Assembly: GCA_947627715.1 (NCBI GenBank)
Contig: CANQXK010000007.1
Location: forward strand, 1-64,000
Length of the DNA: 64,000 nt
Direction: 5' to 3'
Origin: an uncultured Oscillospiraceae bacterium
GTDB lineage: Bacteria; Bacillota; Clostridia; Oscillospirales; Oscillospiraceae
Both the position numbers and the translations under genes were made by a program. Below are positions 3,466 through 51,075 of this stretch, piece by piece (positions within the stretch are counted from its first letter, which is position 1; each line of letters begins with the position of its first letter). The notes below the pieces were generated by a model. That model was not told the origin of the DNA. It searched no databases and was given only the letters and a program-made list of their open reading frames with translations.

Positions 3466-3608
3466 TGAAAACTTTGTGAATTTCCGGCCTCATCCGCCGC
3501 CGGAAAAAAGCGGAGCGCCGGGGCCTCCCCCCTCTTTCGCCGCCTCTCCCCCTTTTTCCACAGGAGAAAAGGTCCTTCCAACCGGCTTTCCACAGCTTTT
3601 CCCGAAAA

Positions 3609-6486: not shown

Positions 6487-7778
<1,292 letters not shown>

Positions 7779-43212: not shown

Positions 43213-44211
43213 TCAGCGCCGCCCCCTTTTCGCAAAGAAGATCCACAGGAAGAAGGGCGCGCCCAGGAGGGCCGTGACGGCCCCCACGGGGATCTCCCGT
43301 GGGGCGGCCAACGTGCGGGCGGCCAGGTCGCACAGCACCATGAAGCTGCCCCCCAGGACGGCCCCGGCCGGCAGGGTATGTCTGTGCCGCGCCCCAAAGA
43401 GCCGGCGGGCCACGTGGGGGGCGATCAGGTCCACGAACCCGATGATCCCCGAAAAGGCCACCGCCGCGCCTGTGAGGACTGACACCAGCACGATGAGCCT
43501 CCGCCTGGCCCGGCGGGGGTCCACCCCCATCGTCCTGGCCTGCTCGTCCCCGAAGGTCAGAAGGTCCAGCTCCGGCGCATAGGCCAGAAAGGCGGCCAGG
43601 CACAGCGCCAGCACCGCCGCCAGCACCGCCGGACCCCGCCAGCCGCGGGAGGCGAAGCTCCCCATCTGCCAAAGGCCGATGCGCTGGGCGTACTCCGGGG
43701 ACATGGCGGCCATCAGGTCCATGACCGCGGAGAAGAAGAGCGAGGCCACCATGCCGGTGAGCACCACCGTCACGTTGGAGATACGCCTGTCCAGCGCCCG
43801 CGCAAGGCTCAGCACCAGAAGCACGGTCAAAACGCCCCCGGCAAATCCCGCCGCGGGCATCAGGACCGACCCCAGCGCCCCGGCGGAGGCCCCCGCCACC
43901 ATCACCCCCGTGGCCCCAAGGCCGGCCCCGGCGGAGACGCCCAGGCCGAAGGGGGACGCCAGGGGGTTCTCAAGCACCGACTGCATCACCGTGCCGCCCA
44001 CCGCCAGCGCCGCGCCCGTGAGGAACGCCAGCGCCACACGCGGCAGGCGCAGATGCACGATCAGCGTCCGGGTGCTCTCCTCCCCCGCCCCCAGGAGGGC
44101 GGCGAGGACCTCCCCCGGCGGGACGGTCACGCTCCCCACGCCCACCCCCAAGAGGACGCTCAGGAGGGCGAAGGCGGCCAGCGCGCCGTACTTTCCCGCG
44201 GGCTTACTCAC
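43213..44211 (-). CDS. btuC: Cobalamin ABC transporter permease BtuC
   Basis: A 332-residue FecCD/BtuC permease with about ten helices; PRVALAFLTGAALAVGGTVMQ is spread over about 53-73 and GFVDLIAPHVARRLFG near 253-268 are family landmarks. Starts with GTG at 44211 and overlaps the end of btuF by 8 nt. Confidence 0.93.
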   Translation of the reverse strand: MSKPAGKYGALAAFALLSVLLGVGVGSVTVPPGEVLAALLGAGEESTRTLIVHLRLPRVALAFLTGAALAVGGTVMQSVLENPLASPFGLGVSAGAGLGATGVMVAGASAGALGSVLMPAAGFAGGVLTVLLVLSLARALDRRISNVTVVLTGMVASLFFSAVMDLMAAMSPEYAQRIGLWQMGSFASRGWRGPAVLAAVLALCLAAFLAYAPELDLLTFGDEQARTMGVDPRRARRRLIVLVSVLTGAAVAFSGIIGFVDLIAPHVARRLFGARHRHTLPAGAVLGGSFMVLCDLAARTLAAPREIPVGAVTALLGAPFFLWIFFAKRGRR

Positions 44212-45133
44212 CGTAGATCTCCGGGTACACGGCCAGGGCGATCTGCCGCATGGCCTCCACCACGTTCTGATCCGGCAGGGACGAGGCCATGTTGTCGATG
44301 GCGTAGACCTCCCCGTTTTTCACCGCCGGGACCTGGTCCCAGCCGGGGCGGCCCAAAATCTCCGCCACGGGGTCGTCGATGTAGTTTACGTTGGTGAGGA
44401 TCACGTCCGGCTGCGCGGCCACCACCGTCTCCTCGGTGACGCCCAGCCAGCCCGTCTCGCCGGCCAGGATGTTCTCCGCGCCGATAAGCTCCAAAAGCTC
44501 GTTGAGGAACACCCCGGAGCCGAAGCTGTAGAGGTAGGGCGCGGCGGAGATCTCAAAGTAGACGCTCTTTTTGTCCGTGACCGTCTTCCCCTTCTCCGCA
44601 AGCTCGTCGATTTGTGCCTGCATCTCATCGACGATCTTCTTCCCCCGGTCCTGCTCCCCCAAAAGCTCCGCCACGAAGGCGATGTCCCCCTGGATGTCGG
44701 CGATGCTGTCGCTGGTGGGGACGCACGCCACGCAGACCCCCAGGTCGATGAGGGGCTGGTAGGGGGCCTCCTGGTCGTAGAGGGACATATTGGTGACCAG
44801 CAGCACGTCAGGCTTCAGGCTCACAAGGCTCTCCATGTCCGGGGCCACCATATCCAGCACCAGGGCGTCCTCCGGGACCCCCTCAAGGCCCACGCTGGAG
44901 GTGTCGCACGCGGCAATCTGATCCCCGTGGCCCAGGGCCGCCACCATCTCCGCAAGGGACGGGGCCAGCACCGCCACGGACTCGATCTTCCCCGGCACGG
45001 CGATCTCCGCGCCGCTGGGGTCGGTGAGGGTGCGGGGGGAGGAACCTGCCGTGTTCCCGTCTCCGCACGCTGTAAGGCTCAAGGCCAGGATAACGGCCAG
45101 CGCCAGGCAAACTGCTCTTGATTTGGTTTTCAT
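44204..45133 (-). CDS. btuF: Cobalamin-binding lipoprotein BtuF
   Basis: Substrate-binding lipoprotein of the importer: a signal peptide with lipobox LTAC (C23), then a periplasmic-binding-protein fold of the BtuF/FhuD type (VAVLAPSLAEMVAALG, DMESLVSLKPDVLLVTN). 309 residues from ATG at 45133, with AAAGGAAG upstream. The frame continues to 45259 but that part is the riboswitch expression platform. B12 specificity is inferred from the riboswitch. Confidence 0.92.
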   Translation of the reverse strand: MKTKSRAVCLALAVILALSLTACGDGNTAGSSPRTLTDPSGAEIAVPGKIESVAVLAPSLAEMVAALGHGDQIAACDTSSVGLEGVPEDALVLDMVAPDMESLVSLKPDVLLVTNMSLYDQEAPYQPLIDLGVCVACVPTSDSIADIQGDIAFVAELLGEQDRGKKIVDEMQAQIDELAEKGKTVTDKKSVYFEISAAPYLYSFGSGVFLNELLELIGAENILAGETGWLGVTEETVVAAQPDVILTNVNYIDDPVAEILGRPGWDQVPAVKNGEVYAIDNMASSLPDQNVVEAMRQIALAVYPEIYGE

Positions 45134-45156
45134 GCGTTTCTTCCTTTCTGTCCGGC

Positions 45157-45191
45157 AAAAAAGAACACCCCTCCAATCAAGGGGTGTTCTT
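45157..45191 (-). terminator. Riboswitch-controlled terminator (attenuator) of btuFCD
   Basis: A 12-bp perfect stem AAGAACACCCCT/AGGGGTGTTCTT followed by a T-run, 24 nt before btuF. The flanking GCCGG/CCGGC pair can extend or compete with the stem, linking it to the riboswitch. Confidence 0.85.
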
Positions 45192-45415
45192 GCCGGCAGA
45201 GACCTGACCCCATGAGCTTCCCCATGCGGCGGCGCAAAAACAGGCACAGGACCATTCATCGTGCTCCTGCGCAGGACAGACTCAGCGTTCTGACTTTACC
45301 GGCGCTCAGCGCCGGCGTTCACAGTGGCGGGACCGCGCGGGATTTTCACCCGACTTTCCTGAATAATAGCCTGACCCTTTATTGGACAGTATTCATTTTT
45401 CCCGGTATTTTTGCC
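45192..45415 (-). ncRNA. Cobalamin (B12) riboswitch
   Basis: The minus strand carries the B12-box core: GGAAAGTCGGGTGAAAATCC, then GCGCGGTCCCGCCACTGT, then a long hairpin CGCCGGCGCTGAGCGCCGG and AAAGTCAGAACGC. These are the conserved core, P5/L5 and J6/3 parts of AdoCbl riboswitches. It lies between the promoter and the attenuator in front of btuF. Exact ends are approximate. Confidence 0.88.
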
Positions 45416-45926: not shown

Positions 45927-46203
45927 TTCCCTCACCTCTTTTGCGCCTGTGATGCAGATTCGTTACATTCTATTGTACTCAAAAAATCCCCCGGAGGTTT
46001 AAGAATCTGTAAACAATTATTGAAAAGGCGCGCAGGGCAAAGCCCTGCGCGCCAAAACTTGTCGGAAAAGGCCTTTGGCCTTTTCCGACAAAGGGGAACG
46101 TGCGGGAAACTCCACGTGAATTTTGCGAAATTCACGCGGAATTTCTCTGCCGTCGCCCTGCGCGCGCCCTTTTGGGGCACACTTGGGCGACAAAAGGCGT
46201 AGA
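45927..46203. other. Hairpin-cluster intergenic region left of the IS30 element
   Basis: No gene is supported. It contains four successive near-perfect hairpins between 46027 and 46191, listed below, and the short 5' region of the zinc-ribbon gene. Confidence 0.6.
46027..46191. repeat. Cluster of four hairpins
   Basis: Arms: GGCGCGCAGGGC/GCCCTGCGCGCC (46027-46053); 15-bp TTGTCGGAAAAGGCC and its complement with a 3-nt loop (46059-46091); CGTGAATTT/AAATTCACG around TGCG (46115-46136); GTCGCCC/GGGCGAC (46152-46191). The density suggests structured repeats or an RNA. Confidence 0.7.
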
Positions 46204-46303: not shown

Positions 46304-46371
46304 ATGCGTCACTACAAACATCTTACCATAGAAGAACGGGAAAAGCTATATTTTTATGTACACGGTCACGG
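46304..46371 (+). pseudogene. IS30 transposase, N-terminal fragment
   Basis: Encodes MRHYKHLTIEEREKLYFYVH, the typical N-terminus of IS30 transposases, then reaches a stop soon after the insertion point. AAGGAAAGG precedes the ATG. Joined at the GG dinucleotide to 48883, the frame continues as HGHG-QSIRKIAQELDRSPS. Confidence 0.85.
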
Positions 46372-46385
46372 CGCAAGTTATATAT

Positions 46386-46520
46386 AATGATACCCCCCCG
46401 GCAAGCCTTGCGCCGTCCCTGGGCGATTGTAGGCCGTCCGGCGGGCCGTTCTGGACGTAACCGGCAGCCAGGGCCAGCCCCACCCGTGGGGGATTATGTA
46501 AACTACGGGCTACTGACTGA
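46386..46520. other. GC-rich non-coding segment at the left end of the element
   Basis: Contrasts with the A+T-rich rest of the element and contains several short GC inverted repeats, the last being CCCCACCCGTGGGG. No gene; it may be part of the recombination site or a structured RNA. Confidence 0.4.
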
Positions 46521-46585
46521 GTGTTTTCAGTAACCGACCACAACAAAAGGCGATTTCAAAAATCGAAAAAATTTCAAAAAAGCTC

Positions 46586-46615
46586 TCGACAATATACAGG
46601 AATATATGTTATTCT
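46586..46615 (+). promoter_or_regulatory. Possible promoter of the regulator-recombinase pair
   Basis: TCGACA and TATTCT separated by 18 nt, preceded by A-tracts, 27 nt before the regulator start. Confidence 0.4.
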
Positions 46616-46641
46616 GTTATTGCAAGGAAGGAGTGAACGGC

Positions 46642-46896
46642 ATGACCGAAAAGAACATCATTCGAGCCGCCATGAAAGCACGGAATATAAATCAGACGAT
46701 ATTGGCAAAAGACGCCGGGTACAGTAGGCAGACCAATGTGAGTGAGCTTCTCCGAAGCCAGAGTTTGCGGGTATGCGCCTTTGTACGGTTGCTGAACGCT
46801 ATGAACTTTGACGTGATTGTGGTGGATAGGAACACAAGGAGCGGGTTCAAGTGGAACGTAACCGAAAAGGACGATGAGAAGGAGAGCGCAAAATGA
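46642..46896 (+). CDS. Small helix-turn-helix regulator of the element
   Basis: An 84-residue protein whose N-terminal 55 residues (IIRAAMKARNINQTILAKDA, then SELLRSQSLRVCAFVRLLNAMN) read as an XRE/Cro-like helix-turn-helix; the tail is charged. GGAGTG precedes the ATG. Its stop overlaps the recombinase start (ATGA), so it probably controls the recombinase. Similar small genes often precede short recombinases in gut Firmicutes. Confidence 0.7.
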   Translation: MTEKNIIRAAMKARNINQTILAKDAGYSRQTNVSELLRSQSLRVCAFVRLLNAMNFDVIVVDRNTRSGFKWNVTEKDDEKESAK

Positions 46897-47582
46897 GGTA
46901 CTTTGTTGCCCGTGTATCCACCAAAGAACAAAACCTTGCCCGTCAGCTTGTTGTTGCAAGGGAGCGATTTGAAATACCCGACGAGAATGTTTTCTGCGAC
47001 AAGGCCAGCGGAAAGGATTTTGACAGGCCGGAATATAAGCGGATGAAAAGCCTTTTGCAACGTGGAGATGAGGTTATCGTAAAGGAGTTTGACCGCCTCG
47101 GCAGGAACAAATCAGAGGTCAAGACGGAGCTTGAATGGTTCAAGGAGCATGGGGTAATCGTCCGAATACTCGATATTCCGACTACGCTCATAGACTTCAA
47201 AGAGCAGACATGGGTTCTTGAAATGGTGAACAATATATTGATTGAGGTGATGGGAACAATAGCGGAGCAAGAGCGAAAGAAAATATTACAGCGCCAAGCG
47301 GAGGGGATAGCGGCTATGCCCATGGTGAATGGGCGTAGGGTGTCGGCACGGACGGGAAATCCGGCCGGTAGACCACCTTCTGAATATCCCGATTTTGAAA
47401 AGTTCCTGAAAATGAAAAAAGACGGTCTGCTGACCGTCAAGGAAGGGTGTGAGAGGTTAGGGATAAGCAGGAGCCAGTGGTACGCGCTGGAGCGCAAAAA
47501 AGAGAGAGGCAACACCCCTCCGGCAAGAGTTTGTGTTACCTCTCAAGAGCAATCCCACATGGAGATTACAAGCCAAGTATAA
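46893..47582 (+). CDS. Short serine recombinase (resolvase/invertase type)
   Basis: A 229-residue serine recombinase: catalytic S9 in ARVSTKEQ, R68 and R71 in FDRLGRNKSEV, the long E helix (VLEMVNNILIEVMGTIAEQE, about 117-136), a GRP linker and a C-terminal helix-turn-helix (TVKEGCERLGISRSQWYAL, about 186-204). Domain order is that of resolvases/invertases, not of IS607 TnpA, whose HTH is N-terminal, nor of large integrases. It is the likely enzyme that inserted the element. Coupled to the regulator upstream. Confidence 0.9.
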   Translation: MRYFVARVSTKEQNLARQLVVARERFEIPDENVFCDKASGKDFDRPEYKRMKSLLQRGDEVIVKEFDRLGRNKSEVKTELEWFKEHGVIVRILDIPTTLIDFKEQTWVLEMVNNILIEVMGTIAEQERKKILQRQAEGIAAMPMVNGRRVSARTGNPAGRPPSEYPDFEKFLKMKKDGLLTVKEGCERLGISRSQWYALERKKERGNTPPARVCVTSQEQSHMEITSQV

Positions 47583-47596
47583 CATTCTCCATGTGG
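47555..47596. promoter_or_regulatory. Perfect inverted repeat at the recombinase 3' end
   Basis: CCACATGGAGA and TCTCCATGTGG, 11-bp perfect arms with a 20-nt spacer that includes the recombinase stop codon. The spacing suits a protein-binding or recombination site; as RNA it would be a hairpin without a T-run. Confidence 0.5.
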
Positions 47597-47609
47597 AAAG
47601 TCAACAAAC

Positions 47610-47647
47610 ACCGCCGGTTTCATGCTGACGGTATTTTTCTATTTTTT
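47610..47647 (+). terminator. Possible terminator after the recombinase
   Basis: ACCG/CGGT stem with one inner pair, followed by ATTTTTCTATTTTTT. Confidence 0.45.
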
Positions 47648-47727
47648 GCTGTATTTTTATTGAAATATCCTCTTTTTTGTGGTACGATTTCTTTAAACGT
47701 GGTAACGCCACGGAAGGAGGAATCACA

Positions 47728-48786
47728 ATGAGTAAAAAACGTCTGGAGCCCGTACAACCGCCACAGAATCAGTATCCTCAACAGCCTCAAGGGGGCCAGC
47801 AGTATCAACAGCCATATCAGCAGAATCCACAGTATCAACAGCCACCATATCCTCAAGCGCCTTATCCGCAGTATCCTCCGTTTCAGCCTCAACCGAAAAA
47901 GAAGCACACGGCACGGAATATCTTGATAGGCGTGGCCGCTGTGTTTGCGTTTTTGGTCATCGTGGCTATCGGGAGCGGCGGTGAGGACAAGGACAATGAA
48001 GAAACGCCGGAGCAGGAGACAACACAAAAAGAAGATGTTGTTTCTGTAGCGATTGATGAGCACACGGTTTATGAAGGCCACGGCGTTAAGATTGATGTGA
48101 CTGGGATAGAGAAAACATCAAGAGGATATGAAGTTAGTTTTTATTTTGAGAATAATTCTACTTTGAACTTGGGATTCAATGTCCACGCTTATGCTGTGAA
48201 TGGTGTCATGTCAAAAGACGGCATATATACGATGGATACCGATGTTCCAGCAGGGAAAAAGTCCAACAACACGCTGAGAGTTTCTGATGAATGGGAGAGT
48301 TTTGGAGAGGAAAAGCCGGTTGAATATCTCGACATCCTTTTCTGGGCCTATGATAACGACAAGTACTTCAAAGAGTTTGATACAGGAGTCATCAGAATCG
48401 AAACGTCAGCATATCATGACGATTACACATATAAGCCGGAGGGTGGTCAGTCTCCAACGTATCAAGTGAACGGTATTGATGTTTACCCATCTATCAATGA
48501 TGAAATGCGCTTCTCGGTGATGATGGTCAACAACGGAGAGCAGTATATTTCATTTGACATGGACAGTGGCTCCGTAAACGATTGGGCCTACGATCTGGGC
48601 ATACAGGTATATGACGAGTTCCTTTTCCCTGGGTGTACCGGCGTGTATGAGGGGAAAATAAGCTCTGATTTCGTAGAAGAAAATTCTATAACCTCATTTG
48701 ACAAATTCAGTTTCACTTTAGATATAAGGCCGTCTGGGGAATACACGGAAAGCTATTCTACAGACTCAATAGAAGTTAAAAAATAA
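47728..48786 (+). CDS. Pro/Gln-rich tethered surface protein (element cargo)
   Basis: A 352-residue protein of unknown function. Residues 8-56 are Pro/Gln/Tyr-rich repeats (YQQP, PQYP), then KKKH, one membrane helix (64-83), an acidic linker (86-105) and an external domain of about 240 residues rich in beta-type segments, in two halves (VYEGHGVKIDVTGIEKTSRG and the later SPTYQVNGIDVYPSINDEM), perhaps a duplicated immunoglobulin-like domain. AAGGAGG lies 7 nt before the ATG. Low-complexity start inside and domain outside resemble DUF4352-type proteins. It ends with its own terminator. Confidence 0.8.
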   Translation: MSKKRLEPVQPPQNQYPQQPQGGQQYQQPYQQNPQYQQPPYPQAPYPQYPPFQPQPKKKHTARNILIGVAAVFAFLVIVAIGSGGEDKDNEETPEQETTQKEDVVSVAIDEHTVYEGHGVKIDVTGIEKTSRGYEVSFYFENNSTLNLGFNVHAYAVNGVMSKDGIYTMDTDVPAGKKSNNTLRVSDEWESFGEEKPVEYLDILFWAYDNDKYFKEFDTGVIRIETSAYHDDYTYKPEGGQSPTYQVNGIDVYPSINDEMRFSVMMVNNGEQYISFDMDSGSVNDWAYDLGIQVYDEFLFPGCTGVYEGKISSDFVEENSITSFDKFSFTLDIRPSGEYTESYSTDSIEVKK

Positions 48787-48793
48787 ATAGGAA

Positions 48794-48827
48794 AATCTCC
48801 GCTATAAAATATGGCGGAGATTTTTTT
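48794..48827 (+). terminator. Terminator of the cargo gene
   Basis: AATCTCCGC/GCGGAGATT with an 11-nt loop, followed by TTTTT. Confidence 0.85.
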
Positions 48828-48837
48828 GAAAAAGGTA

Positions 48838-48866
48838 TTGACATTTATGTGTGACAAATATATACC
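48838..48866 (+). promoter_or_regulatory. Outward-facing promoter at the right end of the element
   Basis: TTGACA and TATACC separated by 17 nt, 16 bp from the right junction, pointing into the IS30 remnant. Could drive the truncated transposase or, before insertion, be part of attP. Confidence 0.5.
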
Positions 48867-48882
48867 TAATGAAAAATTTAGG

Positions 48883-49828
48883 GCAAAGCATCCGAAAAAT
48901 CGCTCAGGAACTTGACCGTTCACCGTCCACGATCAGCCGGGAGCTGAAACGCGGCCGCTGCTATCGGCACCCATATATGCCCTCGACAGCGCAAATACGC
49001 TACGAAAAACGACGAAAGAAATGCGGTCGAAAGCATAAACTGTCGTCCCCTAAGAGCCGGGAAACGGTGCGCACACTCATAGAGGATCAGCACTGGTCCC
49101 CCGAACAGATAGCGAACAGGCTGAGGCTGGAGAACAACCCATTGCAGATAAGCTACGCCTCCATATACAGAGCCATAAGCGCCGGGCTTTTCAACGGTCC
49201 ACTGAACAAGGAGGGCCATCTTCGGAAAGCGTCAAGATTCTCCCGGCACCTGCGGCACAAGGGGAAAACGCGCAAGGCAGGCGGGAAAGGGAAGCAAAGC
49301 CAGATCCCCATCACCCACCACATTGAGGAAAGGCCGCAGGGAGCCCAGGACAGGACCGAGATCGGACACTTCGAGGGGGACACGGTCATAGGAAAGCTGG
49401 GGTCGGCGTGTTTACTAACGCTAGTGGATCGAAAGACGCGGTATACCGCCGGCGGGAAAACGGCGTCGAAGGAAGCGGAAGCCATTAAGGACAGAATGAT
49501 CAAAGCATTGAGCCATCTGCCACAGGACAAAGTAAAGAGCGTGACGCCGGACAGGGGCCGAGAGTTTGCCAGACATGGGGAAGTAACGGAGGCGCTGCCG
49601 CAGGTGGAGTTTTATTTTCCGGTGCCATACTCACCGTGGGAGCGAGGGACGAACGAGAACACCAACGGCCTCATCCGCGAGTTCCTGCCCAAAGGCTATG
49701 ACATTGCGAATGTTTCGGACAAGCAAGTTGAGCAGATGCTATTTCTCTTAAATACACGTCCAAGAAAATGCCTCAATTGGTTGACCCCTATGGAAGCTTT
49801 CTTCGATTGCGTGTTGCACTTGACTTGA
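48883..49828 (+). pseudogene. IS30 transposase, C-terminal part
   Basis: About 315 codons carrying the rest of the IS30 transposase: HTH (KIAQELDRSPSTISRELKRG), then the DDE domain with EGDTVIG, TPDRGREFA and NENTNGLIREF. The first 23 residues or so are on the other side of the insert. A frame from 48869 could express it as a truncated protein without a clear ribosome site. The stop lies within the right terminal repeat. Confidence 0.85.
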
Positions 49829-49902: not shown

Positions 49903-49929
49903 GGCGCGCAGAGCTTCGCTCTGCGCGCC
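49903..49929. repeat. 12-bp perfect hairpin downstream of ftsZ
   Basis: GGCGCGCAGAGC/GCTCTGCGCGCC with a 3-nt loop, the counterpart of the hairpin at 46027-46053; the base pair that differs is changed on both arms. Located 18 bp after the ftsZ stop on the minus strand, where it may act as a processing or termination signal. Confidence 0.65.
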
Positions 49930-49947
49930 AAAATGGATCAATATCGG

Positions 49948-51075
49948 TTATCTATTGAAGATTTTGAAGATCTTGTCAAAGGGGTCCTCCTCCGGCGGGA
50001 CCTCCTCCGGGGCGGGGGTCTCGGCGGGAGCGGCGGGGGCGGCCTCCGCCTTCTGCGCGGCCTCGCTGTAGAGGCCGGCGGCCTGGGCGGCGGACCCGGT
50101 GGCGGGCTTCAGGGTGGGCTTCTCGTCGAACCGGGTGGCGATGACGGTGACGCGGATCTCGTCGTCCAGATCGTCGTCAAACGCCGCGCCGAAGATGATG
50201 TTGGCGTCGGGATTGGCCGCCTCGTGGACGAGGTTGGCCGCCGCCTCGATGTCCTCCAGGGACATATCCATGGAGCCGGTGATGTTGATGAGCACGCCCC
50301 GCGCGCCGTTGATGGAGGTCTCCATAAGGGGCGAGGAGATGGCGGAACGGGCGGCGTCCTCCGCCTTGCCCTTCCCCGCGGCCTTGCCCACGCCCATGTG
50401 GGCGTAGCCGGCGTCCTTCATGATGGCGGTCACGTCCGCGAAGTCGAGGTTGATGAAGCCCGTCTGCTTCACAAGCTCGGAGATGCTGCTGACAGCCTGT
50501 TGAAGGACGGAGTCGGCGATCTCAAAGGCGTTGGCGAAGGTGAGCTTCTGGTCGGTGGCGTGCTTTAAGCGGTCGTTGGGGATGATGAGAAGGGCGTCCA
50601 CCTTGCCCAGGAGCTGCGCGATGCCCTCGTTGGCCTGGTCCATCCTGCGGCGGCCCTCGAAGCCAAAGGGCTTCGTCACCACGCCCACGGTGAGGATGCC
50701 CATTTCATGGGCGATGTCCGCCACAACGGGGGCCGCGCCTGTCCCGGTGCCGCCGCCCATTCCGGCGGCGATAAACACCATGTCGGCGTTCTCAAGGGTC
50801 TTGGAGATGTTGTTGCGGCTCTCCTCGGCGGCCTTCTTGCCCACCTCCGGGTTGGAGCCGGCGCCCTGGCCGTGAGTCAGCTTCTCGCCGATCTGGACCT
50901 TGGTGTCGGCGGCGGAGACGGCCAGAGCGGGCTTGTCGGTGTTGAGGGCGATAAGCTCCACGCCGGAGGTCCCCACCTTGGCCAGGCGGTTGACCACGTT
51001 GTTTCCGGCGCCGCCGATGCCGAGTACCTTTATCGTCACCACATTATCGGGTCCGTTATCTAAAGCAATGGGCAT
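49948..51075 (-). CDS. ftsZ: Cell division protein FtsZ
   Basis: Tubulin-like GTPase that forms the division ring. The 375 residues contain the N-terminal GIGGAGNNVVNRL, the tubulin signature GGGTGTGAAP (107-116), the T7 loop region NLDFADVTAIM and a C-terminal linker followed by the conserved peptide DPFDKIFKIF. AGGAGG lies 7 nt before the ATG. No ftsA precedes it. It has its own promoter and stands slightly apart from ftsQ at the end of the dcw cluster. Confidence 0.98.
   Translation of the reverse strand: MPIALDNGPDNVVTIKVLGIGGAGNNVVNRLAKVGTSGVELIALNTDKPALAVSAADTKVQIGEKLTHGQGAGSNPEVGKKAAEESRNNISKTLENADMVFIAAGMGGGTGTGAAPVVADIAHEMGILTVGVVTKPFGFEGRRRMDQANEGIAQLLGKVDALLIIPNDRLKHATDQKLTFANAFEIADSVLQQAVSSISELVKQTGFINLDFADVTAIMKDAGYAHMGVGKAAGKGKAEDAARSAISSPLMETSINGARGVLINITGSMDMSLEDIEAAANLVHEAANPDANIIFGAAFDDDLDDEIRVTVIATRFDEKPTLKPATGSAAQAAGLYSEAAQKAEAAPAAPAETPAPEEVPPEEDPFDKIFKIFNR

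Follow-up and report, generated by a model that had tools for sequence, protein, structure and literature searches.

A 2.5-kb insert with a small serine recombinase in an IS30 transposase gene of an uncultured Oscillospiraceae bacterium and its relation to a phage gene module

The insert and its ends

The window analyzed here, a stretch of 64,000 nucleotides (nt) of contig CANQXK010000007.1 from an uncultured Oscillospiraceae bacterium, contains an IS30-type transposase gene that is cut in two by an inserted element of 2,514 bp (46351..48864, + strand). The element encodes, on the same strand, a predicted XRE-like regulator of 84 amino acids (46642..46896), a serine recombinase of 229 amino acids (46893..47582), and a cargo protein of 352 amino acids (47728..48786). 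The 5′ fragment of the transposase gene (46304..46350, +) extends through a first TATA (46347..46350), and the 3′ fragment (48865..49828, +; NF033563, 1.6e-84) follows a second TATA (48861..48864), which forms the right end of the insert. An earlier reading of the window, made from the sequence alone (the sequence-only reading), had described an IS30 gene interrupted by a compact insert that encodes a small helix-turn-helix (HTH) protein, a recombinase of 229 residues, and a third protein, all of which was borne out.

The IS30 5′ region was used as query against 99 genomes, and the close copies came from other genomes of the genus. Five copies from four genomes were compared (L033 and L042, both from G010, as well as L034, L035, and L036); they sit at other loci and thus represent the target gene lacking the insert rather than an empty version of the same locus. 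In all five copies, the site reads GAAAAGCTATACCT, and the cut point of the window corresponds to GAAAAGCTATACCTRATGAARAAT. The 5′ fragment matches these copies, and the 3′ fragment matches them from CCTAATG onward. Because GAAAAGCTATACCTRATGAARAAT stands at the site in all five, positions 46351-46371 are assigned to the insert and positions 48865-48882 to IS30. L035 ends shortly past the site, so that joins of the two flanks were compared with the other four copies only. Joining the flanks at TATA gives identity at 94-96 of 107 nt without any gap and yields EKLYLMKNLGQSIRKIAQ, as in the four continuing copies, within a transposase of 336 residues. The insert, which is missing from the copies, has the left end TATATTTTTATG and the right end GACAAATATATA and can be placed in five equivalent ways within the TATA overlap. 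The comparison with the IS30 copies makes the TATA shared by both ends (4 bp) the likely crossover core.

The sequence-only reading had placed the junctions at a GG found on both sides, with an insert of 2,511 bp and a restored transposase of 337 residues. Both joins stay in frame because the two lengths differ by one codon. When aligned to the four copies, the GG join agrees at 103-106 of 128 nt and requires six gap columns, and the residues FYVHGH of its frame are present in none of the five (0/5). Intact IS30 copies that disagree with the predicted join had been named as the observation that would speak against a GG core, and this is what the copies show.

The insertion is precise and has a short identical overlap at both ends, as is characteristic of a site-specific integrative element. 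Among the 25 longest of the 36 listed inverted repeats, none pairs the two insert ends. The insert proteins match no DDE family except for a weak HTH match, which does not fit a DDE insertion sequence or transposon. No second copy of the IS30 3′ part was found in the genome.

Genes and control signals of the insert

The recombinase has its catalytic domain first, followed by a small C-terminal HTH, which is the architecture of the resolvase/invertase group. PF00239 (2.2e-24) spans residues 5-141, and HTH matches at residues 172-219 remain below the cut-off. Sin (2r0q) aligns over residues 5-200 (2.8e-16), and the gamma-delta and Tn3 resolvases align over the catalytic domain. Residues R7, S9, D67, R68, and R71, which we take to be the catalytic residues, are invariant across the 26 rows of alignment A2 (window included) and fall in segments aligned with Sin and gamma-delta resolvase. 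The predicted fold agrees with a resolvase kinship, the model being of moderate quality (pLDDT 74.0, pTM 0.44). No match to PF07508, which marks large serine integrases, was found in the 229 residues. The features of IS607 elements were likewise absent: the catalytic domain begins at residue 5, leaving no N-terminal MerR-type domain, and none of the three insert proteins matches TnpB. Beyond weak HTH matches, no other transposase or integrase family was found in these three proteins. Because of the missing PF07508 match and the C-terminal HTH, the recombinase is placed outside the large serine integrases and the IS607 family.

In the protein search, 7,705 of 7,999 scored candidates had E-values of 1e-3 or below; the recombinase relatives are 64-85% identical among the best 120 of these 7,705, and the relatives of the regulator are 60-87% identical. 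In phage and plasmid collections, 4 and 8 records were recovered (E limits 1e-20 and 1e-30), with best identities of 37.7% and 42.9%, respectively. The regulator gene overlaps the recombinase start by 4 nt. Its PF13443 match (0.0071) lies below the family cut-off, which is passed by the counterpart in L117 (1.1e-5). At a limit of 1e-15, the regulator was detected in one of 400 genomes of the family, its own.

The cargo protein comprises a Pro/Gln-rich start, one hydrophobic helix, predicted to be a membrane anchor, and two predicted beta-sandwich domains (AlphaFold2, pLDDT 81.8). No Pfam family was found for it. It has 41 relatives besides itself (30-44% identity where given), of which 13 carry a zinc ribbon (PF13240). 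The first beta-sandwich matches the profile of the phage-locus cargo proteins with a probability of 94.2 over 80 columns. Fold searches of the cargo recovered beta-sandwiches of a generic kind, and the TM scores over the query were low. A typical phage lipoprotein was considered and rejected, given the 13 of 41 relatives with PF13240 and a resemblance to phage-locus cargo confined to the first beta-sandwich. Ltp-type phage lipoproteins exposed at the surface are described in excerpts of PMC3952083 as excluding phages, and by analogy, a similar exclusion role of the cargo might be guessed at.

A sigma70-like promoter, TCGACA-18-TATTCT (46586..46615, +), lies ahead of the regulator gene; it agrees with the consensus at 9 of 12 positions and aligns with the promoter of the phage loci L228 and L229. 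Behind the cargo gene, a hairpin followed by T residues (48792..48824, +; inverted repeat I4, 15-nt arms, 93% complementary) is likely a terminator, although the terminator scan did not list it. An outward promoter-like site, TTGACA-17-TATACC (48838..48866, +), follows, and the right TATA forms the beginning of its second hexamer. As long as the insert is integrated, the TTGACA hexamer is paired with TATACC and directed out of the element. If the insert were circularized, the same hexamer would be joined to the left end as TTGACA-17-TATATT, a predicted promoter with 11 of 12 consensus positions that faces the XRE-recombinase operon. It would be the only site with at least 11 of 12 positions in the circle; when the 70-bp junction was shuffled 2000 times, 6 of the shuffles scored at least as high. 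Promoters formed in the circle are known for ICEKp1 and ICEclc (excerpts of PMC13023037) and for Tn4451 (a title cited in PMC13023037).

Related modules in phages and the surroundings of IS30

With the close-family recombinase profile, 23 loci were obtained from IMG/VR. The XRE-like gene, identified by eye in this survey, ends at most 60 nt from the recombinase start in 20 of the 22 loci with a recombinase of at least 250 bits, window included (16 of 18 after removal of identical loci). In one exception (L094), the XRE gene is located one gene further upstream; in the other (L103), an anti-repressor-like gene takes its place. An XRE gene directly upstream was seen in none of 21 loci with a weaker recombinase. 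The regulator-recombinase pair is a recurrent phage module and not specific to this locus.

Most of the strong relatives are IMG/VR phage records, in which the pair usually stands shortly upstream of the large terminase gene. The order in most of these loci is a conserved GC-rich non-coding block, the XRE-recombinase pair, one or two variable genes, and the terminase; L084 and L098 stop before the terminase, and L111 has none within reach. The products of the variable genes include DUF5067 proteins (L146, L148), an Mrr-type nuclease (L172), and an anti-repressor-like protein (L103). Among 69 terminase loci tested (80 fetched), several of which lie on contigs too short to judge, 11 had a recombinase of at least 250 bits, and in 8 others it was weaker (68-105 bits). 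A canonical integrase domain was present in 8 of the 11 larger records with a recombinase of at least 198 bits (PF00589 in three, PF07508 in five); the remaining three have neither domain, and the records may be fragments. Since eight records hold another integrase domain, the small recombinase is probably not the main integrase of these phages, a role that had been considered for it, and probably serves something else there.

Two observations concern the 3′ end of the recombinase gene in phages. In L084, a second piece of a recombinase C-terminus (6708-6773, 68% over residues 180-201) lies behind the cargo gene, which would fit an insertion of the cargo into the 3′ end of a recombinase gene or an exchange at this end. 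L130 and L192 are 92.5% identical from position 3517, from late in the recombinase gene through the terminase; upstream of it, their recombinase types differ, so that the 3′ end looks like an exchange point.

The GC-rich non-coding block (GGGGGAT ... GGGTGAGTGTCGAAAATTCCGCAAAAATAAAAAAG) is about 65 bp long and is conserved in 43 distinct terminase-linked loci (L118-L195), whether or not these carry the small recombinase. The block could be the cos site of the phages, a packaging function that we infer. A block model built from 39 phage loci detected contigs outside its set (L108 5.7e-15, L104 9e-7, L094 4.4e-6, L229 7e-6, L228 8e-6, L102 1.9e-5, L084 2.5e-5, and L112 3.2e-5), missed the leaders of L101, L203, and L230, and gave only 0.37 for L227. 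In the 64-kb window, this model, which was calibrated and also misses some phage leaders, had no match at E-values up to 10. The non-coding leader of the insert (46351..46585, +) contains two pieces that resemble the halves of the phage block (46482-46495 and from 46568); they lie about 30 bp further apart than in L228, and the middle of the block is altered. When the leader was searched alone (401 bases), two partial, colinear, weak matches appeared (E 0.009 and 0.086).

The regulators of L228 and L229 are 64% identical to that of the window, with which these loci have ACCCGTGGGGGATT and the promoter-regulator stretch (69% over 272 columns) in common. Without the promoter, shuffled window leaders reached the score in 3 (L228), 4 (L229), 8 (L227), 56 (L084), 108 (L101), and 182 (L230) of 300 cases each. 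With the promoter included, the counts were 0 for L228, L229, and L084, 4 for L101, 14 for L227, and 33 for L230. We read these similarities as a common origin of the promoter-regulator part with the phages, the block having decayed or been altered.

Two pairs of loci were considered as a second case of the element and set aside. L211 (6837-8908) and L212 (2778-4848) share 2.07 kb at 95% within one genome, and their recombinase is only 39% identical to that of the window. The shared part codes for an XRE protein of 295 aa and a recombinase of 217 aa and runs into the first codons of a gene resembling acyl-adenylate ligases, after which each copy is fused to a different ligase-like gene. L225 (6149-8170) and L226 (5622-7637), from two genera, have about 2.0 kb in common (83%). 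This stretch contains a weaker recombinase of 198 aa, located behind XRE genes that differ, and a lipoprotein gene of which only the start is shared. The pair was not used because the shared right edge lies just inside an apparent transposase gene.

In the surroundings of the IS30 gene, near-identical GC-rich palindromes (GGCGCGCAG...CTGCGCGCC, then AAAA) were found on either side (46027-46053 and 49903-49929), an arrangement that would result if IS30 had inserted into a hairpin of this kind or duplicated it. On its right side, IS30 is followed by ftsZ (49948-51075, -; PF00091, 5.3e-48). To the left, an AdoCbl (cobalamin) riboswitch (45241-45386, -; 53.6 bits) lies upstream of a gene (44204-45259) which by eye resembles a transport-binding protein.

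Possible mode of movement and known systems

The interpretation that we favor, with a confidence slightly above even, is that of a phage-related mini-element of 2,514 bp that entered IS30 at a TATA core through the action of its own small serine recombinase and via a predicted circle. Since only a single insertion event is seen, self-mobility is an inference. The sequence-only reading had proposed a minimal integrative element with a resolvase-type, C-terminal-HTH enzyme. This idea survives because the insert is clean, its ends share a short overlap, and it holds one intact serine recombinase, the sole recombinase gene recognized; the core sequence GG, the positions of the ends, and the restored length of 337 residues given with it were wrong.

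In the proposed cycle, the regulator would repress the shared promoter. Relief of this repression would allow the recombinase to cut inside TATA on the left and on the right, which would release a circle and make the IS30 gene whole again. In the circle, TTGACA from the right end and TATATT would form the promoter that drives the regulator and the recombinase, and the circle would then recombine with a TATA-bearing target. The cargo may act at the cell surface, perhaps by excluding other phages.

Several observations weigh against self-integration. The one insertion event has no close relative with readable ends, and the insert is present as a single copy in its own genome. The half-sites around the core are only weakly symmetric (7-9 of 20 positions, at most 6 consecutive). 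Close-family recombinases are rare: at E-values of 1e-70 or below, they occurred in 2 of 394 genomes of the order (the own genome and G444) and in 1 of 391 genomes of the class (the own genome), and at 1e-55 or below in 4 of 400 genomes of the family, own included. The best PHROG match of the recombinase is named DNA invertase (1.4e-38), and the relatives closest to it among solved structures are resolvases; such enzymes have not been described as integrases. An overlap of 4 bp would equally be expected from microhomology joining.

The main alternative, which we regard as rather unlikely, is that a piece of a phage genome (leader, regulator, recombinase, and cargo) was captured in IS30 by microhomology or other illegitimate joining; the recombinase would then be a passenger that normally carries out resolution or inversion for the phage. 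In favor of a capture, phages have the same gene order, the overlap is short and AT-rich, PHROG names the enzyme an invertase, and no second insertion is known. Against a capture stands the tidy unit from leader to hairpin, without a remainder of the terminase or of early genes; moreover, the two ends jointly form a promoter, for which capture offers no reason.

It is improbable that the insert is a minimal phage satellite, integrated by the small recombinase and packaged by a helper phage via a cos-like leader block. The resemblance of leader and promoter to L228 and L229, the two partial matches in the leader searched alone, and the conservation of the block in terminase-linked loci irrespective of the small recombinase would suit a satellite. 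On the other hand, the block differs from that of L228 by a changed middle part that is about 30 bp longer, its packaging role is itself only proposed, and of 34 genomes of the genus, a single one, not the own, contains the terminase of the phage group. A satellite with a working cos is not supported by the block model, even though this model passes over some phage leaders as well. Equally improbable, in our view, is that an enzyme encoded elsewhere in the cell, such as a large serine integrase or a recombinase of the IS607 type, moved the insert in trans. Short overlaps are left by several kinds of serine enzymes, but the insert itself codes for an intact recombinase, and another copy or a partner site was not seen. 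The 2,511-bp version with a GG core, in frame and without an inner stop as its join is, can be dismissed, since it is refuted by the reading TATACCT in all five same-genus copies.

We put forward tentatively, as less likely than not, a bolder form of the self-integrating mini-element: a phage-born 2.5-kb element in which a Sin-type, C-terminal-HTH recombinase, from a class described for resolution and inversion, would serve as both integrase and excisionase at TATA, the XRE repressor and a circle-only promoter would act as the switch, and a surface exclusion protein would be shuttled between phages and chromosomes.

Sin (Tn552 Bin3), the gamma-delta and Tn3 resolvases, and the Gin-type invertases have the same arrangement of a catalytic domain followed by a small C-terminal HTH; they resolve or invert, whereas the enzyme of the window is the likely integrase of a 2.5-kb insert. 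The IS607 family, as described in excerpts of PMC4058570, is similar in its small size, serine recombinase, proposed circular intermediate, and short overlap. It differs in the GG dinucleotide of the overlap, the N-terminal DNA-binding domain, and the TnpB partner, in place of which the window has a TATA core, a C-terminal HTH, and no TnpB match. With Tn4451/TnpX and integrative and conjugative elements (excerpts of PMC13023037), the insert has in common that joining of its ends would create a promoter facing the recombinase operon. TnpX, however, is a large resolvase, unlike the 229-residue enzyme without a PF07508 match. The phage modules in IMG/VR (L084, L094-L112, and L227-L229) resemble the insert in gene order, the coupled pair, and a related cargo domain, but the unit of the window stands alone in an IS30 gene, without a terminase or a recognizable copy of the block. 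PICMIs and other phage satellites (PMC10803314, in part) are comparable in small size, few genes, and phage kinship; in contrast to these, no packaging site was recognized in the element of the window, and the small serine recombinase is the only recombinase found. The picocyanobacterial integrase element likewise has a small serine recombinase within a mobile region and, unlike the element of the window, is thought to be moved by a tyrosine integrase (passages of PMC10187409). In the literature surveyed, that is, listings, openings of abstracts, and passages of PMC4058570 and PMC10187409, no small C-terminal-HTH serine recombinase is described as the integrase of such an element.

If the favored interpretation is true, the insert is an unusually small self-integrating element akin to a phage gene module, and a recombinase of the compact resolvase/invertase architecture suffices for a simple integrative element, with no need for a large C-terminal region. 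It would also suggest why these phages keep an XRE-recombinase-cargo module beside the terminase despite another integrase domain in most of the larger records.

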